This document shows positions 1,240 through 34,324 of a DNA stretch of 34,324 bases, piece after piece. The number at the start of each line of letters is the position of its first letter. Positions within the stretch are counted from its first letter, which is position 1. The notes under the pieces were generated by a model. The model searched no databases. It was not told where the DNA came from and saw only the letters and a program-made list of their open reading frames with translations. The translations under genes were made by a program, and so were the position numbers. Source of the DNA: Chromatiaceae bacterium (GTDB taxonomy: Bacteria > Pseudomonadota > Gammaproteobacteria > Chromatiales > Chromatiaceae); the NCBI GenBank assembly GCA_007693535.1, contig REDK01000065.1, forward strand, positions 1 through 34,324, written 5' to 3'.

Positions 1240-2245
<1,006 letters not shown>

Positions 2246-2246
<1 letters not shown>

Positions 2247-3250: not shown

Positions 3251-3356
3251 CTTGCCCCCCAGCGATGAGCGTCGATCTGCGCTGACGGGCGCGCCCGTCG
3301 TTCGCGCTGCAGTCTCCACCAACCGCCCTTACCAACGGGGTACCGGAACATTACAA

Positions 3357-3445: not shown

Positions 3446-3549
3446 CGGAGACTCGCGGCCCGGCCGCGTTCGTCCGCGCGCACCGGCCCTAGCCCCGGCG
3501 ATGCCTTACCATGGGCGCCGATCCCAGTCAGCCCGATCAGGAGTCCAGC

Positions 3550-17754: not shown

Positions 17755-18290
17755 GGGTCAAACTCCGGCAACAGAAAGACGGACGAGCGCGGGCGTAGCG
17801 CCCCACTCGCGGGCGTGCAGCTTGCCTGCAACCAGCGGCTTGCGCCAGTCGCGGCTGCGGTAGCAGTCGGTGTAGCAGACCGCGTCGAGGTCAGCCGGGC
17901 CTTGGCACTCGCCCGTCAAGGTGACGACCACCCCGGCGCATGCGCCGCCCGACGGCCGCAAACGAAGGCCCCGCGGGGCCGGGCCGAGATTGGCCGGCCC
18001 GGCCGCTCAGCCGCGTCTCCCCGGCAGGCTGGTACGGGCAGGCCAGTGCGGGCAGACCGGTGCAGACCCAGCGCGGTTGCGAGACGCCGGGCGATTGGGG
18101 CTACACTTGCGACCCACCGCGCCGAGGGACCGCTGCCCAGCGCCCGCGCGGACCCGACGACAGCGCAACGGAGACGGCACGGCCCCCGCGCCGGGGACCG
18201 AACAGACGCATGGCCATCGCCCCGCCCAGCCCATTCGGTCGCGGTTGCCCGCCTCGGCGAGCGCAGGCCTTACCTGCGGTTGTCGGCGCC
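17755..18290. other. Spacer between dusA and the VWA-led cluster
   Basis: This 536-base divergent spacer should hold promoters for both directions. A minus frame across 17758-17961 ends just before dusA and encodes a Cys/Tyr-containing peptide (AVCYTDCYRSRDW...), but it lacks an ATG start and I cannot match it to a family; it may be a gene scrap. The plus frame of the VWA gene is open upstream to 17940, but that part is Arg/Pro-rich and not believable as protein. Confidence 0.4.
18077..18107 (+). promoter_or_regulatory. Weak sigma-70-like promoter candidate for the VWA cluster
   Basis: TTGCGA (18077-18082) and TACACT (18102-18107) match the -35 and -10 consensus at four of six bases each, with a long 19-base spacer. 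It lies about 185 bases before the chosen VWA start. This is a candidate only. Confidence 0.22.
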
Positions 18291-20783
18291 ATGAACCGCT
18301 TCGCGCGCGGGTGCTACCGCTGGCTCCTCGGACTCGGCCTGCTGGTAGGCCTGGTCGGCGGGGCCAGTGCAGCCAATCAGGTCGCCGTGGTGCTGGATAC
18401 CTCGCTGTCGATGCAGGTGCGTCTGCGCGACGGCACCGGCCCGAATGATCCTGGGCGGCTCGCGGTGCTCGCGACCATGCTGCTGTACGACCTGGTCGAT
18501 CCTAATCCGCGCCGCCCCGGCAGCCCGGACCACTTCGTGGTGTTCCCGTTTCAGTCTGACTGGCCAGCGCCGCGAGACCTCGGTGACGCGTTGCCCACCG
18601 GAACCGGCGTACCGATCGTCGCGACCGACCAGAGTGCGGCTGCCCGCGAGGCGTTCTGGGCGGCCCTGCATGCCCTACCCTACGATGGTCGCTATACCTA
18701 TTTTTATCCGGGCCTGCGCGCCGCATTCGCTGCCCTACTCGGGCGGCCGGCCGCGGCCGACGACCGACGCGTACTGGTGCTGGTCACCGACGGCGTGCCG
18801 GAGCCGGAGGCCATGGACCGGGAAGCGGCCGCGCTCACAGACCTGCGCCGCGAACTCCTCGCCGCCGGGGTCCAGCTATACGTGCTTGCCTTCGGCCCGA
18901 CTGCCCACCGCGACCGCGCGTTCTTCGATACCCTCTACGCCGACTCAGACGGCGCCGCACTCGGTGCCCTGTTCATCGATCCGAGCGGACACGACCTGGT
19001 GCTGAACATGACCCGGCTGTTCGCGGGAGCCTTCGGCTATCTGGTCGAACACGTCGGCGGCGGGGCGCGGCAGCGTACCCTCGACCTCGCCGGCGACGTG
19101 ACCCCGCCGAAGGTCGCGCTGCTCGCGTTGCGGCGCGATGGCGCGCCGCCGGCGCAGACCCTGGTGCCGGCGGTGAACTCCGCGCGCGGCCTGTTGACCG
19201 CCCGCGAGCTGGGCGCCGCCTATTCGGTGCAGGCCATCGAGGGGCTGCGGCCGGATCATCACTACACCTTCACCACCGACGGTGATGATGTCGAGGTAGC
19301 GATCCTGCGGCAGATCGCTACTGAACTCAGCCTGCTGCCGGGCCACTTCGAAGGCCCCGACGGGGCGATCCCGATGGACGCCGGTCGCCCGCTGCGACGG
19401 GTGGTGGCGGAGACGCCGTTCGTCTTGCGGGTACAAGCGCGCTCGCCGACCGGCACTCCGGGCAATCAGCCCGACTTCAACATCGCCGTCAAGCTGCACG
19501 GCCCGCTCGCGGCTGGCTGCAGCTATGATTGGAGCGACGACTTCGGCGCCCCGATCGCCGGCTCCCGGCGCCGCTTCGGCCCTGGCGTCACCTACGACGT
19601 GCGGCTGCGCTTTCGCGAAAACGATAAAGACCAGACCCAGCCCTACCGTGGCCACGTCGAAGTGAGCGCGCGGCATCGGGCCGGCCCCGGCCTGCCCGAG
19701 CAGGCGGTCGCCGCATTACGCTGCGCCACTGCCCATGCCTTGGAGGTTTGGCCCCGGCTTGCCTTTCGCACCTTGCCGCCCGACGCAACCCTCGACCCGG
19801 CGAGCCTTGCCCGACAACAACGCGGTTGCGCACGGTTTCGACTCGAACTCGACGACCCCGCCCGGCTCGGCGTGCTCGATACCGACACGCCGCGGCTGCG
19901 CGCCTGGCTCGACCCGTCCGCGGCGGCATTGGCTGCCGGCCCCTTCGCCGGTGCCGCATTCAGCCTCGACGGCAAGCCGCTCGGCTGGCCGGGCGCCGAT
20001 ACCCCCTGGCACGCCGGCCAGGCACTCACGCCGCCGCAGCTGCTGGGCGAGCACGAGTTCTGCGTGACCCTCGGCACCCCACAGATCGTCGAGCCAAGCG
20101 CAGACCTCGACCTGCCGCTGCAACTGATGCTCGATCACAGCCCCTATGACGATTTCCGCGTCATCGAGCCCTTTGTCGCCAAACTGCGCGTGCTCCCAGT
20201 GCGCCCGCCGAGCCTCGATCACTTCCCATGGGATGCGCTGTGGGCACTGCTGCTCGCGTTGCTCGCGTTGCTCGCGGCGCTGCGCTGGTGGCTGCCGCGC
20301 TATCCGCTGCCGCGCGCGTTCGCGGTCAGCCTGTGGGCGCCGCCCGCCACCGCCGACGGCCCTGCGGCGCCGCTCTGGCAACCGTTGCCGGAGCCGGCCT
20401 GGTGGCAACGACTGGTCGGCCTGAACCCGCCCCGACCGCTCCGCGATGGCGCCGATCACCTGGTCGGCTGGATCAAACCACTCGACCAAGAACTCTACAC
20501 GCTGCGGCCTGCGCCCGGGTTGGTAGTCAGCCAATCGACGGCCGATGGCAAGCTGACCCGGGTCGCGCCTAACCGCGGCGGTCGCACCGCGCTGTCGGTC
20601 TGGTCAGATTATCGGCTCGCCGGCGACCATGGCCGGTGCTGGTGGCTGCGGGTCGGCTATGCTGCACCGGCACTGGTGCACCGGCACTGGCGGACGCGCA
20701 GACCCGGCGATGACGGCGAGCGACTTCCACTCCCTCTGGAAACAAGCGCTGCAGGCCTTCTTACCGGCCTTCATGCATCCTGA
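18291..20783 (+). CDS. Exported, membrane-anchored VWA-domain protein, first gene of the tubulin-like cluster
   Basis: An 830-residue protein. From ATG 18291 it has a clear Sec signal peptide (GCYRWLLGLGLLVGLVGGASA, cleavage near residue 27). The VWA domain follows at once, with the MIDAS metal site DTSLS (Asp36, Ser38, Ser40), and the later VLVLVTDGVPE strand near residues 161-171. The domain ends around residue 240. A long, probably beta-rich middle follows, then one transmembrane helix at about 648-668 (LWALLLALLALLAALRWWL) and a C-terminal tail of roughly 160 residues. The predicted topology is periplasmic VWA, membrane helix, cytoplasmic tail. An earlier in-frame ATG at 18210 would put 27 residues before the signal peptide and is less likely. 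Such VWA proteins bind partners through the metal site. It leads a co-directional run of seven genes. Confidence 0.85.
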   Translation: MNRFARGCYRWLLGLGLLVGLVGGASAANQVAVVLDTSLSMQVRLRDGTGPNDPGRLAVLATMLLYDLVDPNPRRPGSPDHFVVFPFQSDWPAPRDLGDALPTGTGVPIVATDQSAAAREAFWAALHALPYDGRYTYFYPGLRAAFAALLGRPAAADDRRVLVLVTDGVPEPEAMDREAAALTDLRRELLAAGVQLYVLAFGPTAHRDRAFFDTLYADSDGAALGALFIDPSGHDLVLNMTRLFAGAFGYLVEHVGGGARQRTLDLAGDVTPPKVALLALRRDGAPPAQTLVPAVNSARGLLTARELGAAYSVQAIEGLRPDHHYTFTTDGDDVEVAILRQIATELSLLPGHFEGPDGAIPMDAGRPLRRVVAETPFVLRVQARSPTGTPGNQPDFNIAVKLHGPLAAGCSYDWSDDFGAPIAGSRRRFGPGVTYDVRLRFRENDKDQTQPYRGHVEVSARHRAGPGLPEQAVAALRCATAHALEVWPRLAFRTLPPDATLDPASLARQQRGCARFRLELDDPARLGVLDTDTPRLRAWLDPSAAALAAGPFAGAAFSLDGKPLGWPGADTPWHAGQALTPPQLLGEHEFCVTLGTPQIVEPSADLDLPLQLMLDHSPYDDFRVIEPFVAKLRVLPVRPPSLDHFPWDALWALLLALLALLAALRWWLPRYPLPRAFAVSLWAPPATADGPAAPLWQPLPEPAWWQRLVGLNPPRPLRDGADHLVGWIKPLDQELYTLRPAPGLVVSQSTADGKLTRVAPNRGGRTALSVWSDYRLAGDHGRCWWLRVGYAAPALVHRHWRTRRPGDDGERLPLPLETSAAGLLTGLHAS

Positions 20784-20868
20784 CCGCCGACAGGCTCGGC
20801 CAGATATTTGCTCCAGACTCAATGACATCGGACCCGGCCAGCGGTTGGCCGCGGCCCCGTCGATATGC

Positions 20869-20873
20869 AGGAG
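20869..20873 (+). promoter_or_regulatory. Ribosome-binding site that fixes the start of the tubulin-like gene
   Basis: AGGAG at 20869-20873 stands six bases before ATG 20880. It lies inside the codons that follow the other in-frame ATG at 20865, so 20880 is the better start. Confidence 0.8.
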
Positions 20874-20879
20874 ACACCG

Positions 20880-23800
20880 ATGGCGCGTGCATACATGGCC
20901 CAGCAGGGCAGCATCATCCCGACCCTATTCGTCGGGCTCGGTGGGATCGGCTCACGCATCGTCGATCGCATCGCCGCGCGCGCCCGGGACTTGCCGAACT
21001 GGGACAGTCAGCTCGCTGGGCTCAATGACTTCATCTCGATCGACACCAATGAAGTCGATCAGAACCAACTCACCCAGATCCCGCCCGGCAATCGAATCAA
21101 TATCGCTGCCTTCGACAAGGCCCGCGTGGTCGAGCATCTGCGCCACGCCCGCGACCTGCAGACCGGCGATTGGCTCGACGAGAGCTATCAGCCGCGGCCC
21201 GGCTTCAAGCCGGGCGCCGGGCAGATTCGCCTCGAGTCGCGCCTGGGGTTCTTTTATCACTCCCCCGAGATCCGCCGCCGCCTCGACGAACGGATCGGTG
21301 CCATGTTGCGTCCCAACAATACCTGGCGCCAGCAGCGCCCGCCCAAGATCCATGTCTATCTGTTCTGCTCGCTCGCGGGTGGCACCGGCTCCGGCAGCTT
21401 TCTCTCTGCGGCCTACCTGCTCGACGCGGTGATCCGGGAGCGCCAATGGCAACCGCGCCTGATTGCCAACCTGCTGCTCTCAACCCTGCTCACCGATCAG
21501 GTCGGTCCGGAACTGCATGCCGACATCCACGCCAACACCTATGCCGCGCTCAAGGAGCTGGAATACCTGACCAAGCTCGACTACGACCAGGTCAAGCAGA
21601 GCGGACGCACCTTCGATACCTTCGTCTATGTGCGCGATGAGCACGGCGATACCGTGCCACAGGTTACGCAGCGGCCATTCTTCATGACCTTCATCATGGA
21701 CCGCCCCCCGCACCTCGGGCTGCGCAACGCCGAACTCGCGATTGCCGATGCCGCCTGGCTGCAGGTATTCACGCCGATCATCGACAACCTTTCGGGCGAA
21801 CTCGACAACTACGAGAAGAATCTCGAAGGACTGACCCATTTCGCCGGTAATCTTGCCCACGTCGGCGAGGGCTTCAGCAAGAACTTCGGTGCCTATGGGG
21901 CGGCGGCGCTGGTACTGCCGGGGACCGACCTGCTCGACTATTGCGCCAGGCGCTTTGCCGCCGAGGCAATCCGCGGGCAGATCACCTTCGGCACCGACCG
22001 GCACGACCCCGACGACGAACGCGCGCAGGCGCTCGCCAAGCTCACCGTGGACTACGCCGATCCACGGTTCTTGAAGCTCTCGGAGCAGGGCCGCGAGGAG
22101 GCGATCAACGACGCCTTCGTGCGCTCGGTGCGCGAATTGAAGCGCCAGGACGCCAACGAGGACCTGACCGATGGCTACTGGTACCGACTAGTCGAACAGG
22201 TCGATGCCGGTCGCGTCACCGGCACCGACGAGAAGGGCGCAGAGCAGCGCGCCGAGACCCTGCTCACCACCGTCGAGCGCGCGCTGGCCGCCGCCCGCGC
22301 GCAGTTGATCACCCGGGTCAGCATCAAGGACCGCTCGATGTACTTCCCGAAGGAGAGCGTCAACGTCTACATCGACGCGATCGCCCGGCTCGAAGAGGAG
22401 GTGCGGATCGGCCACCAATTGGTCGCTGCCGAGGCCCCGGGTCTGATCAACGCCGCCGAGGCCGGGGAATTGGTGCTCGGGCTCAAACTCGACCCAATCG
22501 CCGAGCGTTACCTGGTGGTGCGGCTGCTTGAGGTCTGCGGCACCGACTGGCTACCGAGCGCCGAGGCGCAGTTCCGCAAGGCCGAGCGGGCCGACCTGCT
22601 CAGTAATCCGGCAGTGCGCAAGCGGTTGCGCGAGGAGATCTACGAGTCGTTGCAACGCGCCGCCAACACCCGCCGACTGTTCAATCGCGACCGCGACTTC
22701 GACCAGGTGCGCCAGGAGGCCGAGAACGAATACAACAAGACCCGCGGCGCCGCCGTGCGGCTGCTCGATGCCAAGGTACGCCTCGATCAGTTCCGTGCCC
22801 TGCACCGGTGGCTGCAGCGGCGCTCGCGCCAGTTCGTGCGCCTGGCGACACGGATGGACGCGCTGGTGCGTGAACTCGCTGCCGAGGCCGAGCGGTTGCG
22901 CAATGGCGAGCAGGCGCGGGTGCCACCATTCGCATTGCGGGTGGAGGTTCTGGAGACCCTCACCGAGCCGCGGCGGCGGCTCTGGGACGAGGTCTTCGAC
23001 CACCTGTTCGTGGCTGGCGGGCGGGCGCTGGCCACTTTCGACCGCCAGGTGCTCAGCGCTGCCATCACCCGCGAACTGGCGCCAGTGGTCGGCGCCGACG
23101 GGCGGGTGCGCGAGAAGGGCCTGGAAGAGACCGTCGGCGACCTCAAGCGCGCACTGATCGCGCTTGGCCAAGAGCGGCTCGGCCCGCGCCTGCTCGGCCG
23201 ACGCCTGTCTACTGATCCCCAGGGGGATGGCCTCGACCTGGCCGCCGGCCTCGACCTGGAGGCGCGCCTGGTACTGGCCGGCACCGGCAGCGGCGAGACG
23301 CCCCCGGCGGCCGCCATCGCCGACTATAAGAGGATGAAGTTCCGCGCCCTGAGCCAACTGGCCGGCGTACTCGCCCGGGTCAGCAGCGCCGACGCCAAGG
23401 CGCTGGCCGACGGCGTGGTGCTGAACCGCACCCGGCAATTGATCCTGGGCCTCGACGCCACCGCGGCCGGGGAAGGTGCGGCAACCTTCGTGCGCGAACT
23501 CACCGAGATCCTCGGCGAGGCCGGGCGCCAGGTGAAGAGCGCAGTCTGGCACGACCCGCGCCTAGTGATCGTCCATGACGTGGAATTGCCGATCCCGCTC
23601 TACTACTTCCCGGCCATCACCGGTGAGATCGAGGAGGCCTATCTGCGCGTTGCCGCCAACGAGCAGCGCGGCTACCACCTGCACACCGACCGACGCTGGG
23701 AACGCTCGCTGCCGAACCTGAACCCGCGCCGCTCGGAACTCGGGGTGAGCTGGGCGTTGGAGGTGCTCGCCGCGGGGCTGCTGACGCGCGTCATCCGCCA

Positions 23801-24230
23801 GCGCGACGACGCCAGCCTGACCTGGGTCTGGGCCGCGCCGGAGGCCGCAGCGCCGCCGTTCATGCCACTACACCGGCTGCTGGCGGTCGTGCTGTTCAAG
23901 CTCGGCGAACTACACGGGCGTGAACAGTTGCGCGCCCGCCTCGAGGAGCAGATCGAGACCGCCGCCACGGCGCTCGGCGACGAACGGCTAACGGAGCGCC
24001 GCGACCGGCTGCGCGCCTGGCTCGACGAGCAACTGGTGCGGGTGGATCTCGGCACCCTGCAGGGCACCGCCACTAAAGCCGACTACCTCGATCTGCCAGT
24101 GATCCGCGCGCTGCGTACCCTGATTGATGACCTGCACCGGCTGCCGGGACTCGGCGCCGCCGCACCGGGGCGTGCCGCGGCCGCACCAACCCAACCTGGC
24201 ACAGGTCCGACACCGTTGACCTTCGACTGA
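20880..24230 (+). CDS. Tubulin/FtsZ-like GTPase-fold protein (Tubulin_2 type)
   Basis: A 1116-residue protein. The N-terminus has a Rossmann-like first strand and loop, PTLFVGLGGIGSRIVDRI (14-31). Further on, LFCSLAGGTGSGSFLSAAYL contains AGGTGSG (166-172), a near-perfect version of the tubulin/FtsZ GTP-binding signature GGGTG[ST]G with Ala in the first position. These two elements at this spacing define the bacterial tubulin-like family that Pfam calls Tubulin_2. The tubulin-like part probably spans residues 10-400; the remaining 700 are charged and helical with likely coiled coils (about 560-700). No membrane helix is apparent, so it is probably cytoplasmic. It could polymerise or act as a GTP switch; neither can be shown here. 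It is encoded 96 bases after the VWA gene and 110 before the next gene, in the same direction. Confidence 0.87.
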   Translation: MARAYMAQQGSIIPTLFVGLGGIGSRIVDRIAARARDLPNWDSQLAGLNDFISIDTNEVDQNQLTQIPPGNRINIAAFDKARVVEHLRHARDLQTGDWLDESYQPRPGFKPGAGQIRLESRLGFFYHSPEIRRRLDERIGAMLRPNNTWRQQRPPKIHVYLFCSLAGGTGSGSFLSAAYLLDAVIRERQWQPRLIANLLLSTLLTDQVGPELHADIHANTYAALKELEYLTKLDYDQVKQSGRTFDTFVYVRDEHGDTVPQVTQRPFFMTFIMDRPPHLGLRNAELAIADAAWLQVFTPIIDNLSGELDNYEKNLEGLTHFAGNLAHVGEGFSKNFGAYGAAALVLPGTDLLDYCARRFAAEAIRGQITFGTDRHDPDDERAQALAKLTVDYADPRFLKLSEQGREEAINDAFVRSVRELKRQDANEDLTDGYWYRLVEQVDAGRVTGTDEKGAEQRAETLLTTVERALAAARAQLITRVSIKDRSMYFPKESVNVYIDAIARLEEEVRIGHQLVAAEAPGLINAAEAGELVLGLKLDPIAERYLVVRLLEVCGTDWLPSAEAQFRKAERADLLSNPAVRKRLREEIYESLQRAANTRRLFNRDRDFDQVRQEAENEYNKTRGAAVRLLDAKVRLDQFRALHRWLQRRSRQFVRLATRMDALVRELAAEAERLRNGEQARVPPFALRVEVLETLTEPRRRLWDEVFDHLFVAGGRALATFDRQVLSAAITRELAPVVGADGRVREKGLEETVGDLKRALIALGQERLGPRLLGRRLSTDPQGDGLDLAAGLDLEARLVLAGTGSGETPPAAAIADYKRMKFRALSQLAGVLARVSSADAKALADGVVLNRTRQLILGLDATAAGEGAATFVRELTEILGEAGRQVKSAVWHDPRLVIVHDVELPIPLYYFPAITGEIEEAYLRVAANEQRGYHLHTDRRWERSLPNLNPRRSELGVSWALEVLAAGLLTRVIRQRDDASLTWVWAAPEAAAPPFMPLHRLLAVVLFKLGELHGREQLRARLEEQIETAATALGDERLTERRDRLRAWLDEQLVRVDLGTLQGTATKADYLDLPVIRALRTLIDDLHRLPGLGAAAPGRAAAAPTQPGTGPTPLTFD

Positions 24231-24340: not shown

Positions 24341-26827
24341 ATGCCGGAGGCAGCACCGCCGGTACTCAAGCCCGCCATCCTGATCGGCCACGGCCGCTTC
24401 GGCCGCGCTGTGCTGCGTCGCCTGCTGCGTAAGACCGCCACGCGCGGCAGCCTGGCCTGGGCGACGCCGGCCGCCACCGGCACCGACTCCCACCGCCTGC
24501 GTGACCTGGCCTTGCTGTGGCTGCCAGAGGCACAGGAGCGCACACCAACCACGGACGGCGACCCGATCGAGCCGGATGCGACCGACGGCAACGCCGACTT
24601 TCTGCTCGACCTCTACCGGCAGATCCGCACAGTGCCGCCGCACCCCGGCGCGACCGAGCCGGCGCTCGCCGCGGCCGCCGCCGAGGCGGCGGCCTTCCTG
24701 CGCCGCCCCGAGGTGGTCGCCCTGCGCCCCGGCGATCAGCCCGGGCTGGACCTGATCGTGCTCGCCCATCTGGAGGCCGCCCCGGCGGTGGCGACCCTCG
24801 ACAGCCTGACCCGCGCGGTGCTGCGGCGGCTCGAACAGGACAACCCGGGCTGGCGCGTCGCGCAGACCGCCAATCGCCGGCTGCACTGTATCGCGGTGCT
24901 CGACTTCGACAACTACCGCGGTAGCGGGCCGGAGGCTGCGGCCCTGCGCCGGGCGCTCGGCCGCTCGCTGGAGGCCTGGCGGGCGGCGCTGACCGGCAAA
25001 CAGCCGGCGGTCGGCCGCTGTTATCTGCTCGACGGGCGTGCCGGCGATAGCCATCGCCCATCGAGCAGCCGCGTTGGCGAGGTCACCCTGTGGCTCGAAC
25101 TGCTGCTGTTCGCCGGGCTGCGCGGCGATGACAGGCTGAAATCCCTGTACGAGCACCCGGGCGGGGATCAAGGCATCGCCGCCGCGTTCGGGGTGCGATT
25201 GCTCGAGCGCAGCACCGGCTGGCTGAGCCAGTTGGCCGCGGCGCGCTTCGGCGCCGGCTGGCTGCCGTATCTGCGCGGCGGCGGCGAAACCGGCTGTCTG
25301 CACCCGCCACAACGGTTGGCCGCGGCCCTCGCGCCGTTGCTGGCCGAGGTCCAGGCCGGTGCGGCGAGCCACGCGCCGCTCGACGCGCGCTGGCGCCAGG
25401 CGACCGACGCCCTGGCCGCCGAACTCGCGGCGCTGCCGGCGCCAGCAGCCGCCGACTGGGTGACGCGGGTCAGCGCCGGCTTCGAGCGCGGCGCCCGGCA
25501 ATTGGCGCGTGAACTGCAGCGCGACGGGCTCGCGTGCATCCGCCGGCTGCGCGAGGCACATCTCGCCGACCACGGCAAGCCACTGATCGCGGCGATCGGC
25601 GCTGACCTGCACGATCAGTACCATCCAGTCCCGCTGCAGGCCGTCACCGACACCCTCGACGAGACCATTACCGCGCTGCAGGGTCAGGCGGCCCCGGCCG
25701 CCACCGGGCCCGCGGCGCCGCCGCGGCCGACCGCGGTGGCGCACGCGCATGCCGCCTTTCGCGCCGCCGAGGCCCAGTGGATTCGGGGCAACGGACGCGG
25801 CCTGGCCGGCTTCTGGCCGTTGTTCGCGCTCATCGGTGCGCTGCTCGCCACGCCGATCGCGCAGGACCTGGTGCGCCAACTGCCGCTCATCGCTGCGGCC
25901 GACTCGCCCTGGCAGGCGCGGCTGCTCGCCGCCAGCACCGTACTGGACCGACCGCTGACCCTCGCGCCAGCCTTGTTCGTCCTGCTCTGGAGCAGTCTCG
26001 CGCTGGGCCCGCAGCGTGCGGTGCGGCGCGGCATCGCGCGGGCGCGGGCGTTCTTTCTCGACCCGACCCGGGGCCAGCTCGCCGCCGCGCTGCGCGTCGA
26101 CTGCGACCAGCTCGCCGGGCTGCGCGAGCAGACGCGCGACAACGTGCGCGCAGCGCTCGCCGTCGACACCCTCGCCGTGCTCACCCGACTGCGCGCCCGG
26201 CTTGCCGCGCGCGCCGCGGAGCTGGACTGGCTGAGCGCACAGTTGCGCGAGTTCCAACGCATGCAGGGACTGGTGGACCCGACCGACCTGATCGTGCACC
26301 CACCGGCCGATGCCTGTCACCGCCTGGTCCTGGCCCCGGATGACCTGCAGCGCATGATGCAGATCCGCCCCGCCGTGGCGGCCCACTTCGAGGCCCATCA
26401 GCCCGACCTACCCGCGCCTTTCGCTGGCTGGGACGCGCCCTATTGCGCGGGTCTGCTGGACCTGTTCGGCTTCGTCGGGGCGCTGAGCGGGCGCTACCGG
26501 CAGGCCTTCGACGACGCCGCGAGCGGCGCGCCCGGCAGCGCCGGGACTGGCCCGGAGTGGCAGCTACGCCGGGCTGCGCTCGCCGATCTGCTCGCGCGGT
26601 CGGCGCCGGCGCCCGGCTTTCGCATCAGCGCCGATCAGCGAACCTCGACCGCCGTACGCTTCGCGGTCTTGCCGTCCGCCTGGCAGCGCGACGATGGGGT
26701 CCGCGAACTCCTCTCGCGGCACGGCTTCGACAGCGAGGCCTGGCGCCTGGGCAGCGACCCGGCGCGGCTCTACCTGCTGACCGTGGAATGGCACCTCGAC
26801 GCCACCGCGCTGGAAGGGGCGACATGA
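24341..26827 (+). CDS. Two-pass membrane protein with a divergent tubulin-like N-terminus (putative)
   Basis: An 828-residue protein I do not recognise with certainty. Its N-terminus, PAILIGHGRFGRAVLRRLL (11-29), parallels the preceding protein's PTLFVGLGGIGSRIVDRI: a hydrophobic strand, a G-x-G-x-x-G turn and an amphipathic helix. Around residues 180-200 a strand is followed by DFDNYRGSGPEAA, which might replace the tubulin signature loop, but the canonical GGTGSG is missing. Two hydrophobic helices at about 485-508 and 537-556 suggest a membrane hairpin, with helical domains on both sides. The start ATG 24341 has AAGGAG eight bases upstream. The stop overlaps the next start (ATGA at 26824-26827). 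A reasonable reading is a degenerate, membrane-bound partner of the active tubulin-like protein; a Rossmann-type nucleotide-binding protein is the alternative. Confidence 0.6.
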   Translation: MPEAAPPVLKPAILIGHGRFGRAVLRRLLRKTATRGSLAWATPAATGTDSHRLRDLALLWLPEAQERTPTTDGDPIEPDATDGNADFLLDLYRQIRTVPPHPGATEPALAAAAAEAAAFLRRPEVVALRPGDQPGLDLIVLAHLEAAPAVATLDSLTRAVLRRLEQDNPGWRVAQTANRRLHCIAVLDFDNYRGSGPEAAALRRALGRSLEAWRAALTGKQPAVGRCYLLDGRAGDSHRPSSSRVGEVTLWLELLLFAGLRGDDRLKSLYEHPGGDQGIAAAFGVRLLERSTGWLSQLAAARFGAGWLPYLRGGGETGCLHPPQRLAAALAPLLAEVQAGAASHAPLDARWRQATDALAAELAALPAPAAADWVTRVSAGFERGARQLARELQRDGLACIRRLREAHLADHGKPLIAAIGADLHDQYHPVPLQAVTDTLDETITALQGQAAPAATGPAAPPRPTAVAHAHAAFRAAEAQWIRGNGRGLAGFWPLFALIGALLATPIAQDLVRQLPLIAAADSPWQARLLAASTVLDRPLTLAPALFVLLWSSLALGPQRAVRRGIARARAFFLDPTRGQLAAALRVDCDQLAGLREQTRDNVRAALAVDTLAVLTRLRARLAARAAELDWLSAQLREFQRMQGLVDPTDLIVHPPADACHRLVLAPDDLQRMMQIRPAVAAHFEAHQPDLPAPFAGWDAPYCAGLLDLFGFVGALSGRYRQAFDDAASGAPGSAGTGPEWQLRRAALADLLARSAPAPGFRISADQRTSTAVRFAVLPSAWQRDDGVRELLSRHGFDSEAWRLGSDPARLYLLTVEWHLDATALEGAT

Positions 26828-29628
26828 TCGCCTGGCTGCCGCTCGCGCTGCTCCTTGCCCTGTTAGGCGTGGGCCTGCTAGCCGACCGCCTGGCCGCGCG
26901 CACGCTGCCGGACCGCGGTGCCTACTGGACGCGGGTCCTGCTGCTCGCGAGCCTGCCACTCGCACTCGCATTGCTCGCGAGCTGGCTGATCGAGGCCGTC
27001 GCAGCCCGTCGCTGGCAACAGGGCTGGCACCTGCTGTGGGATCAGCTGCATCCGGGCAGCACCTTCGGGCACCTGCTTGCAGCCACGGTGCCGCTCGGGC
27101 TCTGGCTGCTCGCGCTGGTCATCGCCGCCATCACCGGCAACCGTGCGGCGTCCGCCGGGCGCTGGCTCGCCGGATCGATCGGGCTGACGCCAACGCGCCA
27201 CTGGTTGCTCGCGGCGGGGGTCGCACCGCTCGCCATCCTGCTCGCGGCCGGCGCCGGACGGATCGGCGCGCCACCGCCGGCACCCGCCTACCCGCTCGCG
27301 CTGTGGGCGCTGGGCGCACTGACCGCCATTGCCCTCGGGATGATCGCGCTGAGCCACGCACCCGCACCCGCACCGGACACCACGCCGCCGCGCCGGCGCC
27401 GACCGCCAACCGACTCGCTGCCCAATTGGCCGACCATGCTGCGCGCCCGCGGCATCGCCTGCGAGTCACTCGTGCGGTGGGCGGGCGCGCCCGCCACCCC
27501 GGCCGACCCGACGTTGCTGCCGGCGGCGCTCGCCGCCCGGGCGCTGCCGGCCTCGTTGGTCTCGGCAGTCCTCGCGAGCCCGGGACACTGCTTGCTCGAG
27601 GCACCCGACGACGCCGGCCAACTGGAGGCGATCGCCGCCTGTGCCGAACGCGCCGCGGCGCGCGGTGATGCGGTGGTGCTGCTGATCTGTCCCGATGAAC
27701 CAGCGGCCCTGCGCGAGCGGCTGCTCGCGTTTCTGCCCGACCCCGAGGCCGCCACGCTGCTCGCACCCACCACCGGTGCCGACAGCCCGGCCTGGGTCTG
27801 GCTGACCGACGCGATGACGCTCTCGGACCGGCTGCTGCCGCGGTTTGTCGAACAGCCACGGCTGTTGCAGCGCGTTGGAACCCTGGTCTGGTGGGACCTG
27901 CACCGTTACTCCGGCGTGCTCGCCGCCAATTTCTGGGCCATCACCCACCGCTTCGACCGCCTGCTCAACCACCGCGGCGGGCCGCCACCGCGGCAACTGG
28001 CCTGTGTGCGCGGGGCCGCGGTGGCGGAGACCCAGCTCAGCGCCTTCGTCAACCTGTGCCTGCCCGGACGCTTCGAGGATGCCCAGACCGCGATCCCGGC
28101 CACCCCCAGCCAGCCACTCGATCTCTACCTGCTGGGTGCGGCCGGCGGGCCGGCGCAGGATCAGCGCGAGCCGTCGCTGGCGGCCGCAGCGGCCTCGGTG
28201 GCGGCCGGCTGGCCGACCCACGTCGCCACGCCGGGATCGGTCGACGCCCTTGGCATCGCGCGCTTTCGTGCCAGTCTCGGACCCGCCGCCGACCGCCTGG
28301 TGGAGCCGGTAGCGGCAGCCGCGCGCATCCTGGAGATCGATACCGAAACGGTACTCGATCTGCCCGACCTGATCGCTCAGACTGGGCGGCTGGCCGACAC
28401 CGCGCCGGTGCAGATCGGCCTGCTGCCGGCCTTCGGCAACCCCTATGTCGCGAGCCTGCTACAGCGGCTCGCGCGCGAGCCCGACCTGCTCGCCCGGCGC
28501 GCACGGCGCATGGTCGCAGCCGAGCCGCAACCGGGCGTGATCAAGCGCCACCTGCTGCTCGCGCTCAACGAGCTGGCCGATACCCCGGCACGGCTGGACA
28601 CCAGCTTCCGGCGCGAGCAGACCGGGCGGGTACAGGCGACGCTGCGCGCGCTGGCCGACAAGCATGAGTTACAGCGGCGCGAGGTGCGCTATCTGGCCGG
28701 CCCGCCAGGCCAGGCGCGCCTCGCCGTGGAGGTAGAGTACAGCTCGGTGCTGCCGCGCGATCGGGCGCCGCCGTTGACCAGTCTCGGCGACCGCCTGGTA
28801 GACCTCTACGATCCGGGTGCCGAGCCGGTACTAACCCGCATCGACCCGGAACGCCTGACCATCGAGGCCTATCCATGGCGGGTGTTCCTGCACCAGGGAC
28901 GACGCTATCGGGTGAGCCAATGGCAGGACGCGGCCGCGATCGCCGGCCCCGCCGGCAGCCTACGCGTGCAGTGCCGGCCCGAGGATCGCGCAGTGCGCAC
29001 CTGGCGGGTATTCGCCCCGCGTCTAAGCGCGACCCGCGGGATCGACGGTCGGCGCGACCTGCGCCTGCTCGGCCGCGGCGGCCTCGCCCGGGCCCTGGTC
29101 GAGACCACCTACCGCGAATGGGTCAGCGGCTATCTGGAATACGCTATCGACCCGGCCAGCGGGCACTGGGTCGAGGTCCAGCGGGCCGACTTCGCCGAGG
29201 TCGAAAGCCTGCCGTTGCCGACCACCGGGTTCCTGCTGCAACTGCCGGCCGCGCCCGCCACCGGCCACGGCCTGCATTCGCTCGCACAGGCCCTACGGCA
29301 CGTCTTCCCGGTGCATGTCGGCGTAGCCGAGGACGCGGTCGCCATCGTGCCCTTCGCTGGTCACGCCGACGACCTCGGTACCGGTCTGATGATCGTCGAC
29401 CTCTACCCGGGTGGGATCGGCCTGGTGCAATCGCTCGATCAGGATCTCAATCTGCTGCTGCGCCTGCTCGCCGACACCCGCGACTGGCTCGCCAATTGCC
29501 CGTGTCGACGCGACGAGGGCTGTGCACGCTGCCTGCAATCGCCGCTGGCGCGCAGCGCCATGGTCGATCCGCTCTCGCAGGCGCCGTCGCGCCGCGACGC
29601 GCTCGCACTCCTCGCCCTGATAGGCTGA
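26824..29628 (+). CDS. Membrane-anchored degenerate SF2 helicase with DUF1998-type Cys cluster
   Basis: A 934-residue protein. Five transmembrane helices lie at about 3-20, 38-58, 84-104, 126-146 and 156-178. A region then follows the layout of a DEAD/DEAH helicase whose active site is lost. The Walker A position reads APDDAGQL (260-267) where an ATPase would have a GxGKS/T loop, followed by the usual strand DAVVLLICPDEPAALRERLL. Motif II reads LVWWDLHRYSGVLAAN (354-369), where DEAH has become W-D-L-H. The C-terminus keeps four cysteines, C892-x-C894-x5-C900-x2-C903, the cluster that ends DUF1998 helicases, preceded by the typical DLYPGGIGLVQSL. ATP hydrolysis is therefore unlikely while the zinc-like site is intact. 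It probably works as a structural or nucleic-acid/protein-binding membrane component. The frame is open upstream to 26443, but ATG 26824 overlaps the previous stop. Confidence 0.7.
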   Translation: MIAWLPLALLLALLGVGLLADRLAARTLPDRGAYWTRVLLLASLPLALALLASWLIEAVAARRWQQGWHLLWDQLHPGSTFGHLLAATVPLGLWLLALVIAAITGNRAASAGRWLAGSIGLTPTRHWLLAAGVAPLAILLAAGAGRIGAPPPAPAYPLALWALGALTAIALGMIALSHAPAPAPDTTPPRRRRPPTDSLPNWPTMLRARGIACESLVRWAGAPATPADPTLLPAALAARALPASLVSAVLASPGHCLLEAPDDAGQLEAIAACAERAAARGDAVVLLICPDEPAALRERLLAFLPDPEAATLLAPTTGADSPAWVWLTDAMTLSDRLLPRFVEQPRLLQRVGTLVWWDLHRYSGVLAANFWAITHRFDRLLNHRGGPPPRQLACVRGAAVAETQLSAFVNLCLPGRFEDAQTAIPATPSQPLDLYLLGAAGGPAQDQREPSLAAAAASVAAGWPTHVATPGSVDALGIARFRASLGPAADRLVEPVAAAARILEIDTETVLDLPDLIAQTGRLADTAPVQIGLLPAFGNPYVASLLQRLAREPDLLARRARRMVAAEPQPGVIKRHLLLALNELADTPARLDTSFRREQTGRVQATLRALADKHELQRREVRYLAGPPGQARLAVEVEYSSVLPRDRAPPLTSLGDRLVDLYDPGAEPVLTRIDPERLTIEAYPWRVFLHQGRRYRVSQWQDAAAIAGPAGSLRVQCRPEDRAVRTWRVFAPRLSATRGIDGRRDLRLLGRGGLARALVETTYREWVSGYLEYAIDPASGHWVEVQRADFAEVESLPLPTTGFLLQLPAAPATGHGLHSLAQALRHVFPVHVGVAEDAVAIVPFAGHADDLGTGLMIVDLYPGGIGLVQSLDQDLNLLLRLLADTRDWLANCPCRRDEGCARCLQSPLARSAMVDPLSQAPSRRDALALLALIG

Positions 29629-29654: not shown

Positions 29655-32012
29655 ATGGACCAAGAACACGGCAAACCAGCGCTGCGTGCGCTACTCGCCG
29701 AGACCGAGCGACTATCCGCGCGGGTGGCACCAGCCGCGGACGCCTGGCACCGCCGGGTCGAGGCCCTGGCGGCCGCGCTCGCCCCCCGGCTACGGCCGTT
29801 CGCCTGGCCAGCGCGGACCGCCCAACTGGCGCGGTGGCGCGCCGAATACCAAGGCTGTGCGGGACTCGCCGATGACCTCATCGCGCTGCTCGCCGAGATC
29901 GAGCGGCAGCGCGCGGGCGAGCAGGCACTGCTCGCGACCACCAACGCCGCCACCGATGGCGACCTGGCCGGCTGGTTCGCGGCGCGCGCCGTGGCACGCA
30001 CCGAGCGACTCGGAACGTTGCCGGTCCCGATCGCCGATCGCGACGGGCTCGAGGCGGCACGGCAGATCCTAGCCGATCTCGGGAAAGCATCCGTCGCCGA
30101 GCGCAACCTGCTCGACCTCTATATCGAGGCCGCCCAACGCGCGGGGGCCCCCGGCGCAGCCGCCGGCCCGACGCGCGACCTGGCCGCGGCCCTGCCGGGC
30201 CTGCGCGCCGAACTCCTGGCCAGCCCGCGCATCCCGCCCGGCCAGCGACGGCTACCCGACCTGTTGGCGCCGGCCCGCGCACTCGATGCGCTGCCGAAGC
30301 CCGGTGCGTTACAGCAAGTGTTTCCGCGACTCGAAGGCCTGCGCGACTGGCTCGGTGTGCTGCGCGACGGCGCCGACGCCGACCTCGCCGGGGTCGCGGA
30401 CGCCGGGCGGGATTACCAGCGGCTGCGCGCAGGCTATCAGGAGCTGGCCCGACAATGGCGCACCCGGCCAGAAGCCGAGGTCAACGACCTGCTCGCCAGG
30501 CTCAGCGCGCTCGAGACCCGCATGCTGGCACTCGGCCAAGCAGAGCAGGTGCGGCTGATGGGACGCCTGACCCGGGCACTCGCGCTGTTCGAGCACGTCA
30601 CCGAACCCTCGCTCAGCGCGGCGCTCGATGAGCGTATCCGCGCGCTGCGGGCCCAGCACCCGACCGATCCCGCAGGCTTCCGGGGTTGGCGCGAGGCGGT
30701 CCGCATGACCGAGGTCGAGGTCGAGCGGGCCTTGGAGCAGGACGCCCCGGCGATTGTCGCCGAGTGCGAACGGCTGGCCGACGCGATCACGCGGGACCTC
30801 GCGGTGCTCGCCGCGCGCGCCCTGCCGGTCACCGCGGCGGCACGGCGGGAGGCCCTGCGCCGCGAATTGGCGGGCCTGCGTGAGCGGCTGGCGGAGCAGC
30901 GGGCAACCACCCTGATCGACACCCGCGCCGGGCTCGTCGCCATGCAAACGTCGGTGCAGGGGCTGCTGGCCGACACCGAGGCACGCGCGCACCGCCACGC
31001 GCACCGGCTGGCCGCCCTCGAGCACCGCGCCAGGCGCCTCGCAACGCTGGCTGCGGCGCTCGCGCTGCCACCCCCGCCAGCGCTCGACCCGCTGGCACCG
31101 GCGCCGACGCTGAACGCCGAGCGCCGGGCCCTGATCGAGCGCCGGGCGGCCATCATCGCGGCCGAGGAGCAACTGCGGACCAGCGCCGTGCCAGGCCTGG
31201 CCACCCGGCTCGGGGCGCTGCGCGCCGGGCACGCGCTGCTCGCGACTGCCGAAACCCGGCCGCCGCTGCCGACCGCACCGGACCAGCGCACGCCGCTGCG
31301 GGTGCTCCAAGTCCTGAGCGGGGAGCTGCCGCGCTGGGAGCAAGCGCTGGAGCAGGCGCTGGCCACCCGGGCCGATGACCTGGACCGGCAACGGGCCGAG
31401 CTGCGGGAGCAGCTCGCGGCCATCGCCGGCGCGCCGGGCGCTGGTCCCGACCTGTTGCTGGCCGATCGCGACGCGGCCGCGCGGTTGGCGGCTCGGCTGG
31501 TGCTCCCCCGACCGCCAGCGGCCTCGCCGCGCTCGCTGATCGGCCCCTGGCAAACCGAGGTCACGCAGGCCGCTGCCCTGGTTGAGCGCCTTGACCGGCC
31601 ACGGCTGACCCAGGCCCGGCACCACACGGACCTGCGGGCGCGCCTCGAACGACTGCGCGCTGACTGCTTCGAACTCGACGCCCCGGCCCCCGCCGCGCGC
31701 CCGTTGCTCGATCGGGTCTGGGCGCTGCTCGCCGAGCTGCCCGGGGTGGAGGTTGGGCATGGCCTGATGGAGGCGCAGTTGCAGGAGGCCGAGCGCCTGC
31801 TCGCGGCACTCGAACAGCACGGTGCTCGCCTTGCGGCGGCGAGTATCGAACAGGCCAGCGCGGCGCTGGCGCGCCAGCCCGACCCCGTCGCGCGGACGCT
31901 GCTCGAGGCACTGCGCGCCACCGCGGGTCGCCCGGATGCCGCGCTGCGCCGGCGGGCCTACGCTCATGCTGGCATCGATCCGATCGACCTCCCGCTGGAG
32001 GCCCCGCGATGA
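29655..32012 (+). CDS. Long helical protein of unknown function in the tubulin-like cluster
   Basis: I do not recognise this 785-residue protein. It is rich in Ala, Leu, Arg and Glu, with almost no stretch that would make a membrane helix, and has many heptad-like segments (for example near residues 270-310, 380-430 and 575-600), so it is probably an elongated helical or coiled-coil protein in the cytoplasm. It starts 26 bases after the degenerate helicase gene and its stop overlaps the start of the GTPase gene (ATGA at 32009-32012), so it is almost certainly part of the same operon. Tight coupling to the GTPase suggests the two products interact. A scaffold or effector role is a guess from shape and position only. 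Confidence 0.7.
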   Translation: MDQEHGKPALRALLAETERLSARVAPAADAWHRRVEALAAALAPRLRPFAWPARTAQLARWRAEYQGCAGLADDLIALLAEIERQRAGEQALLATTNAATDGDLAGWFAARAVARTERLGTLPVPIADRDGLEAARQILADLGKASVAERNLLDLYIEAAQRAGAPGAAAGPTRDLAAALPGLRAELLASPRIPPGQRRLPDLLAPARALDALPKPGALQQVFPRLEGLRDWLGVLRDGADADLAGVADAGRDYQRLRAGYQELARQWRTRPEAEVNDLLARLSALETRMLALGQAEQVRLMGRLTRALALFEHVTEPSLSAALDERIRALRAQHPTDPAGFRGWREAVRMTEVEVERALEQDAPAIVAECERLADAITRDLAVLAARALPVTAAARREALRRELAGLRERLAEQRATTLIDTRAGLVAMQTSVQGLLADTEARAHRHAHRLAALEHRARRLATLAAALALPPPPALDPLAPAPTLNAERRALIERRAAIIAAEEQLRTSAVPGLATRLGALRAGHALLATAETRPPLPTAPDQRTPLRVLQVLSGELPRWEQALEQALATRADDLDRQRAELREQLAAIAGAPGAGPDLLLADRDAAARLAARLVLPRPPAASPRSLIGPWQTEVTQAAALVERLDRPRLTQARHHTDLRARLERLRADCFELDAPAPAARPLLDRVWALLAELPGVEVGHGLMEAQLQEAERLLAALEQHGARLAAASIEQASAALARQPDPVARTLLEALRATAGRPDAALRRRAYAHAGIDPIDLPLEAPR

Positions 32013-33661
32013 GTGATCCCGACCGGCGTGAGCCCGATTGGCGCACCTGGCCGGCCCTGGCCGACCTCGGCCACCGTAACCGTTGGCGCTTCAACTGCGC
32101 CCAAGGGATCTGGGGCCGCGCCGCGACCGGCGCGGCCGCACCCAGCTGGCTGGCGGCCAGCGCAGGCTTCGACCCCGCCGCACAGGCGCGCGCCGCCGCC
32201 CTGCTGCCCAACGCCGGAGACGCCCCAGCGCCGCTCTGGTATTGGCATAGCGATCGGCAGGGCTGGCAGGCAGGGTGCGTTGGGCCAGTCCCACCCGGGG
32301 ACACGCCGGACCCGCGGTGCCGGGTCCTCGACTGGCCGCACCCGGTCGCGGCGCCGACCGCGGTGCCAACTGCGCTGGTAGCGCTCGCGCTGCTGCCGCG
32401 GGTGGCCGAACCCAGCGCAGTGCCGGCCGGGCCGCTACCCGTCGAGAACATCTGGTTGGATACCGACGGCGTCGCGGCGCTGATCGCTACCGGCATCGGC
32501 GCACTGGCCCGGCAGCTCGACTTCGAGCGCCTGACCGCGATCTACGCCGCCGTGCTCGACGGTGCGCCGCTGATAGCACTGCCGGCCGACCTGCCGGCCA
32601 GCGCGCTGGCGGTGCTGCTGCTGCCGCTGGAACCGGCGCTGGCCGAACGGATCAGCCTGTACTCGCGCGCGCCCACCTCCGGCCCTGATCCCACGGCACA
32701 GACCAGCGACTCGCCCGGCGCCGCCTCCCGCATCCACCTGGTCGGTCTGCCCGCCAAGGCGCCCCCGGGACCGGCCACGCCAGCCAGCCGCGCGCACGCC
32801 ACGCGACTGGCCGCGGCGCTGTTGGCAAATGACCCACAGCGGCTCGTCGGCGGCCCGACCGCGCCGGCACCGCGGGCGGCGGGTCCGCCAGCAGCGGAGC
32901 CTGCGACGCGGACGCTACGACTGTGGGGCGCAGCCTCCTCGGGCAAGACGGTGTATCTCGCGCAATTGTTCAGTTGCCATCGGCGCGGCGGCGACTGGTC
33001 GGTGCGGGTGCCACCCGACGGCAACGCCGAGTGGTTCGCCAAACGGCTGGACGGCTTTCGCCGGCAGGGGCACTTCCCGCCACCGACCCCGCCCGGAACC
33101 AGCGACCATCTGGCCTATTGGCTCGTCAATGAACGTACCGGCGAGCGGGCCGCCATCGCGGTCGAGGACCGCCCCGGTGCCGAGTCCGAGGTCGTCGACG
33201 CCGAGACCGCACGGCGCCTCGCCGCCGCGGACGGGCTCCTGCTGCTGCTCGACCCGCTGCGCGATGCCGGGCAGCAGGCCGATGAGGTGCGGCGCGGCCT
33301 GCTCGCGATGCAACAGGCACGCGGCAGCGCCGAGCGCGACCCGCGCCCGCTCGCGGTCTGCGTGTCGAAGTGCGACGCGCTGATCGAGACCATCGCCGAT
33401 TACCAGCGCGCCCGCGACGAGTCGGCGGCCTTCCTGCAACCGCACCTCGCCCCGGGGGTCAGCGAGGCACTGGATCATTACTGGTCGCCCGGGCGCTACC
33501 GGCTGTTCCCGCTGTCGGCAGTCGGCGTGCGGGAGCAGCATGGCGCGCTGCTGCCGGTGGTCTTCTACGACGAGCACCTGGACCTGCGCACCAACCATGC
33601 CGGGGTGCCGCTGAACCTCCTGGAGCCGCTCCTGTGGCTGCTCGCGGAGGCTGGGCCGTGA
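32009..33661 (+). CDS. P-loop GTPase with an N-terminal GTPase-associated domain
   Basis: A 550-residue protein with two parts. Residues about 14-240 form a domain with WPALAD, WGRAATG (35-41), WLAASAGF (47-54) and VLDWP (106-110); the next gene begins with a paralogue of it. Its layout recalls the GAP1 (GTPase-associated protein 1) families of bacterial conflict systems, though I hold that link loosely. Residues about 300-549 are a P-loop GTPase domain: Walker A GAASSGKT (307-314), a switch-2/Walker B region with DRPG (387-390, matching DxxG), and SKCD (453-456) in the place of the guanine-specificity motif [NT]KxD. All nucleotide-contact motifs look usable. The substitution of Ser for Asn/Thr in the last one is tolerated in several GTPases. 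It probably switches or regulates the tubulin-like complex. Confidence 0.8.
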   Translation: MSDPDRREPDWRTWPALADLGHRNRWRFNCAQGIWGRAATGAAAPSWLAASAGFDPAAQARAAALLPNAGDAPAPLWYWHSDRQGWQAGCVGPVPPGDTPDPRCRVLDWPHPVAAPTAVPTALVALALLPRVAEPSAVPAGPLPVENIWLDTDGVAALIATGIGALARQLDFERLTAIYAAVLDGAPLIALPADLPASALAVLLLPLEPALAERISLYSRAPTSGPDPTAQTSDSPGAASRIHLVGLPAKAPPGPATPASRAHATRLAAALLANDPQRLVGGPTAPAPRAAGPPAAEPATRTLRLWGAASSGKTVYLAQLFSCHRRGGDWSVRVPPDGNAEWFAKRLDGFRRQGHFPPPTPPGTSDHLAYWLVNERTGERAAIAVEDRPGAESEVVDAETARRLAAADGLLLLLDPLRDAGQQADEVRRGLLAMQQARGSAERDPRPLAVCVSKCDALIETIADYQRARDESAAFLQPHLAPGVSEALDHYWSPGRYRLFPLSAVGVREQHGALLPVVFYDEHLDLRTNHAGVPLNLLEPLLWLLAEAGP

Positions 33662-34324
33662 ACGCGGTGGATCTGCCGCCCTGGCCGGCCCTTGCCGACA
33701 CCCCAGCCCCACTGCCGGTCCTGGCACTGCGCCGCGGGCGTTGGGGCAAGGTGGCCGGCGGAACCTCCGACTATCGCTGGCTCGCCTGCTCGCCGGGGTT
33801 CGGTGCTGGCCGCACCGATCTCGCCGGGGCGCTGCGCCTCGGCGCCGAAGACCATCCGACCCGCGGCCTGCTCTGGCGCCGCCTGCCGGATCGGCTGCTC
33901 GCGGTGGCGGTCGCGCCGAGCCACGCCCGCGACAGCGCCGGGCGCCCAAGCCTGCTGCAGAAGCAGGTCCTCGAATGGCCGCTCGCATCGCCGCCATCCG
34001 GGGCCGCGCCAGCCGCCGGCCCCCCCTGGCGGCTGCCGCTACCAGCCGCGCTGGCGGCGCTCTGGCTGTTGCCGGCGATCGCCATCGACGACGACGGCGC
34101 CGGGCCTGCGGATGGCAACGACCCACGCTGGCGCGATCCGGCGTTCGCACTGCCAGCGGCGCCGACAGCGCTGCAACCGGATCTGACAATCACTCACGCC
34201 CGCATTGTCGACGGCGCCGCAGCACTGACCGCGCAGGTCCCGGCGCCGGTGCTCGCGGCCTGGTACGCGACGCTGCTCGCCGGTGGCTGCCCGGCGGTGC
34301 TGCCGGCGCCGGCCGCGCTGCCGC
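33658..34324 (+). CDS. Second GTPase-associated-domain protein, N-terminal part (runs off the window)
   Basis: The frame begins with GTG 33658, overlapping the GTPase gene's stop (GTGA at 33658-33661), and stays open for 222 codons to the window edge. Its N-terminus is paralogous to that of the preceding protein: WPALAD (9-14), WGKVAGG (29-35), WLACSPGF (41-48), VLEWP (104-108) and LPAALAALWLLP (128-139) align in order and with similar spacing. It also has SHARDSAGRP between these, a His/Asp/Arg segment the first copy lacks. No GTPase motif has appeared by the cut, so whether this copy carries its own GTPase domain is unknown. The overlap indicates translational coupling. Confidence 0.75.
   Translation, partial: MNAVDLPPWPALADTPAPLPVLALRRGRWGKVAGGTSDYRWLACSPGFGAGRTDLAGALRLGAEDHPTRGLLWRRLPDRLLAVAVAPSHARDSAGRPSLLQKQVLEWPLASPPSGAAPAAGPPWRLPLPAALAALWLLPAIAIDDDGAGPADGNDPRWRDPAFALPAAPTALQPDLTITHARIVDGAAALTAQVPAPVLAAWYATLLAGGCPAVLPAPAALP

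Follow-up and report, generated by a model that had tools for sequence, protein, structure and literature searches.

The present study concerns a stretch of 34,324 nucleotides from a Chromatiaceae bacterium (GenBank assembly GCA_007693535.1, contig REDK01000065.1, positions 1 to 34,324 of the forward strand), hereafter the window, and one protein encoded in it. The gene, at 26824-29628 on the plus strand, starts with an ATG at 26824, ends with a stop codon at 29626-29628, encodes 934 amino acids (aa) with no internal stop and shares an ATGA start/stop overlap with the upstream gene. The protein and its orthologues are named PSH herein, and PSH is regarded as a dead, probably membrane-bound offshoot of the YprA helicases inside a known type of tubulin operon. 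At its N-terminus, a predicted membrane region of about five segments covers residues 1-180 (26824-27363), as indicated by hydropathy (segments 1-19, 38-56, 85-103, 127-145 and 158-176; a further one at 231-249 is doubtful) and by helices in a low-confidence structural model. The former Walker A site, APDDAGQLE, lies at residues 260-268 (27601-27627), in a register set by hand with which statistically weak profile alignments agree, and the former motif II, WDLHRYSGVLAANFWA, lies at residues 357-372 (27892-27939). An OB/connector-like region at residues 600-735 (28621-29028), identified by profile comparison over residues 600-815, is followed by an MZB (DUF1998) zinc-binding domain with the pattern CPCx5Cx2C at residues 820-904 (29281-29535), recognised by Pfam and by its cysteines.

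Six genes of the window, PSH among them, stand in a row on the plus strand, and the contig ends at 34324 inside a further frame. The row begins with a von Willebrand A (vWA) protein (17940-20783; Pfam VWA_2 score 18.3, below the cut-off of 27), the true start of which is probably inside the frame, at the signal-peptide-like MNRFARGCYRWLLGLGLLVGLVGGASA. It continues with a tubulin-like FtsZl1 protein (20865-24230; Pfam Tubulin_2, E 4.7e-40) with an intact AGGTGSG loop, and with X828 (24341-26827), a partner with two central membrane segments and no Pfam family. Downstream of PSH lie the conserved gene CC785 (29655-32012), which has no Pfam family and probably encodes a coiled coil, judged by eye, and a double-GTPase family protein (32009-33661; DO-GTPase2, 33.0 bits against a cut-off of 27) carrying SSGKT and SKCD. 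Four-base start/stop overlaps join X828 to PSH and a later pair (32009/32012), and therefore the operon genes are probably translated together. A tubulin-like gene beside vWA and GTPase genes is the arrangement of an FtsZl1 (Tubulin_2) operon, with the vWA match here below its cut-off. The AGGTGSG nucleotide loop is intact in all 12 tubulins, and the GK[ST] loop in all five double-GTPases examined; the DO-GTPase of locus L068 scores 44.7 bits in Pfam. X828 begins with a glycine-rich strand-loop-helix (PAILIGHGRFGRAVLRRLL), and its first 26 residues resemble the T1 loop of the neighbouring FtsZl1 protein, with a score of 33.9 (shuffles at most 22.7). The part that follows scores 17.6, below the shuffle maximum of 25.1, and a C-terminal piece scores 22.5 against 15.0 for shuffles, over 20 columns only. 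X828, which has two membrane segments, may be a degenerated tubulin, or its N-terminal likeness may be that of any glycine-rich Rossmann start.

The motor sites of PSH are replaced in a conserved manner. Where intact relatives read TASGKT, PSH reads APDDAGQL (residues 260-267), and where they read DExH it reads WDLH (357-360), while the zinc cysteines stand at C892-P-C894-x5-C900-x2-C903. A first-pass annotation of this DNA had pointed out both replacements, the C-terminal cysteine cluster and five membrane helices in front, and the present alignment of homologues bears these points out. None of the 12 PSH copies contains GK[ST], DExH or QxxGRxGR. G-Q-x-E occupies the Walker A site in all 12, mostly as APDDAGQLE or similar, and the motif II site reads x-D-L-[HD]-x-YSGV in 11/12, with x being W, F, L or C. 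Two further changes, on which the first-pass annotation is silent, are that motif III is gone and that motif VI is broken, retaining only GR in 11 of the copies; the SAT motif is missing from 6/7 copies, and the single SAT string of P0001 sits at another place. The CxCx5Cx2C cysteines are present in 12/12 copies, and the other 11 have four or five N-terminal membrane segments each at the same hydropathy threshold. Even the most diverged copy (L155, 7452-10601; 36% identity to the window protein) keeps GQxE and the cysteines, with APDLCGQAE at motif I, WQVHEYTGV at motif II and no motif VI GR. The most conserved ten-residue stretch of the first seven copies, together with its one-residue-shifted neighbour, is YSGVLAANFW of the former motif II, and the peptides that the search tool itself selected as conserved in PSH are the remnants of motifs I and II.

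By comparison, TxSGK[ST], DExH, SAT and QxxGRxGR are all present in 24/24 distinct intact YprA helicases, one of which (L034, 9724-12216) is encoded by the same genome as the window. This control set was chosen by homology of the C-terminal half alone and not by motif; 13 of the 24 came from zinc-domain or PSH-profile searches and 11 from a helicase model, which favours intact proteins. A further 15 helicases cut at the end of their locus were left out, and L099, a duplicate of L034, was counted once. In PSH, the reading frame is open without stops across the full match in 12/12 copies. The ratio of nonsynonymous to synonymous substitution (dN/dS) is 0.11-0.28 in the ten closer pairs among seven PSH copies, comparisons that involve the window or L068 being excluded as too diverged (dS about 1); these close pairs are under purifying selection. 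The replacement residues are fixed and dN/dS is low, and therefore the former motor sites have been kept for another purpose.

Several comparisons place PSH beside the YprA/MrfA helicases, with a relationship that exceeds chance in the C-terminal part. MZB, the zinc domain of MrfA, is the sole Pfam family above the cut-off in the window protein (E 6.6e-9) and is matched in all seven PSH members scanned, none of which matches DEAD or Helicase_C. The NCBIfam DEAH helicase model TIGR03817 matches PSH at E 2.4e-9, although its 36 bits lie far below the curated cut-off (874). In a phmmer search of the PDB, the only match is MrfA/YprA (6znp; E 5.4e-4), located in the zinc domain; the alignment to 6znp around motif II, PSH IVIDELHTYRGV against LVWWDLHRYSGV, is not significant by itself. 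However, with the zinc domain set aside, the motif II stretch aligns with an intact YprA helicase at a BLASTP E of 0.001 in a single pair. The whole profile-profile match between PSH and intact YprA reaches E 2.3e-13 over 528 columns, with a score of 118.1; the highest score among 25 column shuffles is 25.7. In the main piecewise comparison (12 PSH copies against 25 intact YprA rows, 24 of them distinct, with the maximum of 25 column shuffles), the zinc domain scores 74.2 against 19.3, the OB-connector (residues 600-815) 30.4 against 22.3 and the winged-helix region 21.1 against 17.6. RecA1 scores 31.6 against 22.5, contributed by the motif II region only, and the core 32.7 against 23.3, or 28.4 against 26.9 in a smaller comparison that used 13 YprA rows and the maximum of 20 shuffles. 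The OB-connector scores 34.7 against 21.6 and 36.2 against 22.5 in two other comparisons, with an hhalign probability of 62% at the score of 36.2 and 26% at 30.4. RecA2 together with the following region is borderline, at 18.7 against 18.2 with 12 copies, 23.0 against 16.7 with seven copies, and 19.1 against 20.1 in the smaller comparison (13 YprA rows).

The distribution of PSH is narrow and follows that of the tubulin-like gene. By profile search, 12 PSH copies occur in 10/189 genomes of the window's family, belonging to four of 61 genera. In a draw of 398 genomes across the phylum, PSH was found in the window's own genome only, the one other match being a zinc-domain match of 22 bits. The orthologues were reached through the tubulin neighbour and then by the larger family scan: the neighbour search gave five loci with a 57%-identical tubulin (two Lamprocystis, two Thiodictyon and one Chromatiaceae metagenome-assembled genome), and whole-genome search of 11 tubulin-bearing genome handles gave full-length PSH at 40-44% identity in six handles, which stand for five distinct genomes besides the window's. 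Handles naming the same genome, as judged by equal contigs and places, were counted once (G469=G407, G468=G892, G467=G916, G466=G925, G470=G905); the Lamprocystis purpurea locus L038 belongs to genome G468, and the family is accordingly taken to be the Chromatiaceae. A pattern scan of genome contigs with P0001 alone found no PSH, and one of viral contigs with the PSH alignment gave no match, nor did plasmids. When 55 relatives and 369 class genomes were searched with a single sequence, zinc-domain-level matches were the only ones beyond the window (in one and three genomes), and a profile matched nine of 96 family genomes, two at full length and seven at zinc-domain level (21-41 bits); both kinds of search score only the best few candidates per genome, such that an outlying relative may escape.

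An orthologue of the tubulin-like gene (55-72% identity) is found in exactly the 10 PSH genomes, in 12 copies and in equal copy number, two genomes (G859 and G892) having two copies of each gene. At E 1e-10, the other 179 of the 189 family genomes contain no tubulin orthologue except for a 29%-identity tubulin in G441, and under the thresholds applied both genes are missing from 178 genomes. Over 12 pairs, the pairwise identities within PSH follow those within the tubulin with r = 0.984, a value reached in 0/5000 permutations, and the two trees differ only in how they order the deep copies L068 and L155; inside a genome, the genes were paired by shared contig or nearness. Tubulin, X828 and PSH are consecutive genes in six copies, the other half of the 12 pairs lacking this arrangement, and X828 is directly upstream of PSH in nine, with X828 beside the tubulin gene on another contig in L069 and L073 and the L134 contig too short to judge. 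In other words, the tie to a tubulin-like protein noticed in the first-pass annotation extends beyond the window to the same 10 genomes, with equal copies and near-matching trees. With 178/189 family genomes lacking both genes, the fit therefore exceeds shared descent of whole genomes.

Herein, we propose that PSH is a dead-helicase subunit of YprA/MrfA type that serves as a membrane scaffold for a GTPase-run complex of the tubulin-like FtsZl1 protein, an account that we judge somewhat likelier to be right than wrong. The proposal builds on the zinc-domain homology, the fixed motif replacement, the selection on PSH, the gene-for-gene pairing with the tubulin and the intact loops of the partners. 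The ATPase centre of a YprA/MrfA-type ancestor would have been lost before the PSH family spread. The N-terminal segments would fix PSH in the inner membrane, a topology and location that we infer, and a cytoplasmic shell composed of the dead helicase core, the OB-connector and the zinc domain might act as a docking platform. PSH and the adjacent membrane protein X828 may together dock a tubulin-like polymer or complex, and the switching would be supplied by the GTPases of the operon, namely the tubulin-like protein and the double-GTPase. Of the earlier suggestion that a helicase fold has turned into a membrane scaffold, the YprA/MrfA relationship, the loss of motifs, the predicted membrane segments and the tubulin tie are supported, and the scaffold role itself is the conjectural part.

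Several results weigh against this proposal. The motif I half scores 14.6, below its shuffle maximum of 15.7, despite having its best local placement in the Walker A register; RecA2 alone scores 17.2 against 18.6. Outside the zinc domain, hhalign probabilities are low, at most 62% (RecA1 42%, OB-connector 26-62%). A forced global alignment of RecA1 pairs LLEAPDDAGQ with VVATPTASGK at a probability of 5%, and that of the longer core covered 15 columns only. AlphaFold predictions of the window protein, made with no alignment input, reach a mean confidence (pLDDT) of 40.4 for the whole protein and 37.9 for residues 236-610. In the model of 236-610, a strand-loop-helix-strand at APDDAGQ (about residues 247-305; block mean pLDDT 54-67) would fit a P-loop remnant and proves nothing. 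Because of these piecewise scores and hhalign probabilities, the homology of the zinc domain to MrfA/YprA is regarded as certain and that of the motif II region and the OB-connector as probable, whereas RecA2 is unsupported by sequence and the presence of two RecA-like folds is unproven. The helicase landmark order claimed for the protein is therefore only partly borne out: motif II, the winged-helix region and the OB-connector exceed all shuffles, and the motif I half and RecA2 do not. A clear [ST]KxD motif is absent in 2/5 double-GTPases. Moreover, the PSH genomes come from four genera only, and therefore the co-occurrence represents few independent events. Within the family, more distant Tubulin_2 genes are found with no accompanying PSH (G441, G463) and as additional loci in G407, and PSH is missing from all other FtsZl1 loci examined; therefore, such systems in general do not need PSH.

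Considering these scores, one alternative is that the YprA-derived part comprises the OB-connector-zinc module only, with the region from the membrane segments to residue 600 being an unrelated fold and the motif I and VI landmarks coincidental. The failure of the motif I half and of RecA2 alone against column shuffles, the bare pass of the core in its smaller comparison and the lack of DEAD and Helicase_C matches are all consistent with it, as is a motif III-VI tract that, by estimate from the sequences, falls about 40 residues short of its counterpart in the intact protein. However, alignment of the motif II stretch does not depend on the zinc domain and falls where it would be expected, in the right order, and the best local fit of the motif I half lies in the Walker A register; we consider this alternative unlikely. 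That PSH is a working NTPase with unusual motifs, G-Q-x-E standing for GK[ST] and an E-to-D change in motif II, would agree with the fixation of the replaced residues (GQxE 12/12, motif II DL 11/12), but the Walker lysine is lost, the Mg-binding aspartate of motif II has given way to W, F, L or C, and motif VI is reduced to GR in 11/12 copies. We know of no superfamily 2 ATPase that works without the Walker lysine, the motif II aspartate and motif VI, and this explanation is highly improbable. A decaying pseudogene would account for the loss of catalytic motifs and would be in line with a merely degraded copy of an intact helicase. Decay is refuted by the open frames, the dN/dS values and the conserved replacements, no orthologue being intact, and it is practically untenable.

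The remaining alternative gives PSH a different task, namely that of a membrane sensor of nucleic acid in a defence-like conflict system, in which ATP-free binding of single-stranded DNA (ssDNA) or RNA near the membrane by the dead core, the OB-connector and the zinc domain would trigger the GTPases and the assembly of the tubulin-like protein. In the available text of a survey of the family, YprA helicases are described as central to defence, with an OB-connector-DUF1998 canopy that moves on ssDNA (PMC12458937), and operons with a tubulin and double-GTPases are, in the part of PMC7159879 available, among the proposed conflict systems. Moreover, no part of PSH is better preserved than the zinc domain, and the OB-connector region is probably retained. 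On the other hand, the helicase motifs that contact DNA (Ia, IV and V) are unrecognisable by eye, and PADLOC models matched none of the six operon proteins at E 1. Downstream of residue 180, PSH is slightly acidic, with a net charge of -1 to -17 in seven copies compared with -8 to +14 in 13 whole intact helicases, although charge is a weak indicator of nucleic-acid binding. We regard a sensor role as doubtful, and the earlier idea that the protein tethers DNA or RNA is likewise unsupported by these motifs and charges. The specific version, in which a dead, membrane-inserted YprA helicase would be the receptor of a bacterial tubulin system, detect nucleic acid that enters or lies at the inner membrane with no need of ATP, and relay this to a tubulin-like assembly driven by GTP, is quite improbable; if true, a single machine would combine the FtsZl1 cytoskeleton with the YprA family of defence.

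Compared with known systems, PSH resembles YprA/MrfA (TIGR03817, MZB, 6znp) in its four-cysteine zinc domain at the C-terminus, its probable OB-connector-like region and a motif II region with the following helix, all in the same order. It differs in the absence of ATPase motifs in 12/12 copies, the membrane segments in front, the unrecognisable RecA2 and the tubulin-like neighbour. DrmB of DISARM, described in the available text as an OB-connector-DUF1998 protein with no motor, is likewise an ATPase-less DUF1998 subunit; unlike PSH, it is paired with the active DrmA, and membrane segments are unmentioned for it there (PMC12458937). PSH carries its own degenerate core, and its operon has no intact YprA gene. 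The words tubulin and transmembrane do not occur in the main text of that survey. The FtsZl1 operons of Makarova and Koonin (2010) similarly combine vWA, FtsZl1, GTPase and membrane proteins in one operon, whereas the available text names no helicase-derived component and contains the word "helicase" zero times (PMC2875224). The tubulin-containing GAP1-N2 double-GTPase systems of Kaur et al. (2020) share tubulin-domain, vWA, DO-GTPase and membrane components, but the tubulin theme is described, in the part available, as restricted to firmicutes and actinobacteria and as having GAP1 and FNIII proteins (PMC7159879). The window operon has the DO-GTPase, and no GAP1 or FNIII family was matched among the operon proteins scanned, the contig-cut last gene being outside the scan. 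Other pseudohelicases, Utp25 and the PriA of D. radiodurans, are also relatives of helicases without helicase activity; they belong to other families, and the titles and abstract openings mention no membrane segments or tubulin link. Among the matches listed in open-literature titles and abstract openings, a set that leaves aside subscription papers and supplements, no PSH-like protein is described.

Further observations were made at the ends of the window and at other loci. By eye, the start of the contig-cut last frame (33658-34324) resembles the N-terminal half of the double-GTPase protein, and a downstream gene of L068 (4095-5549) matches the window GTPase protein at E 2.7e-6 with no Pfam match; either product may be a GAP1-like partner. 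In G407 (L021-L023) and G463 (L024, L025), three Tubulin_2 matches per genome were observed with differing partners, including an OmpA-domain protein in L023, which hints that one cell may have several tubulin-like systems side by side. Two proteins tried as distant PSH in other FtsZl1 operons, which also carry N-terminal membrane segments, were rejected (Azospirillum, 1118 aa, 23.1 against 21.5 for shuffles; G407, 704 aa, 13.9 against 21.3). On a Thermus oshimai plasmid (L128, 8395-21017), an FtsZl1 tubulin-like gene and a vWA gene lie beside genes annotated as brxL, a 3'-5' exonuclease and a RecQ helicase, neighbours that may place the FtsZl1 system there in a context of defence. Elsewhere in the window, an ordinary-looking MoxR-DUF58 set occupies 220-3322 on the minus strand (a MoxR-type AAA ATPase, PF07726, a DUF58 protein and a further gene), and the gene at 3511-5460 is presumably an arginine decarboxylase. 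Two adjoining methyltransferases recognised by Pfam at 9606-11278 (minus strand), which we take to be glycine/sarcosine and dimethylglycine methyltransferases, suggest a salt-adapted organism.

To date, the role of the widespread FtsZl1 operons has been a matter of proposal only, either membrane remodelling or conflict, in the available text of the two reports on them (PMC2875224, PMC7159879). PSH occurs together with this tubulin branch in every copy found and is predicted to be membrane-anchored, and thus it offers a definite handle on that role. The findings also indicate that the zinc shell of YprA helicases has been reused without its motor, and PSH-like proteins should accordingly not be annotated as ATP-dependent helicases.

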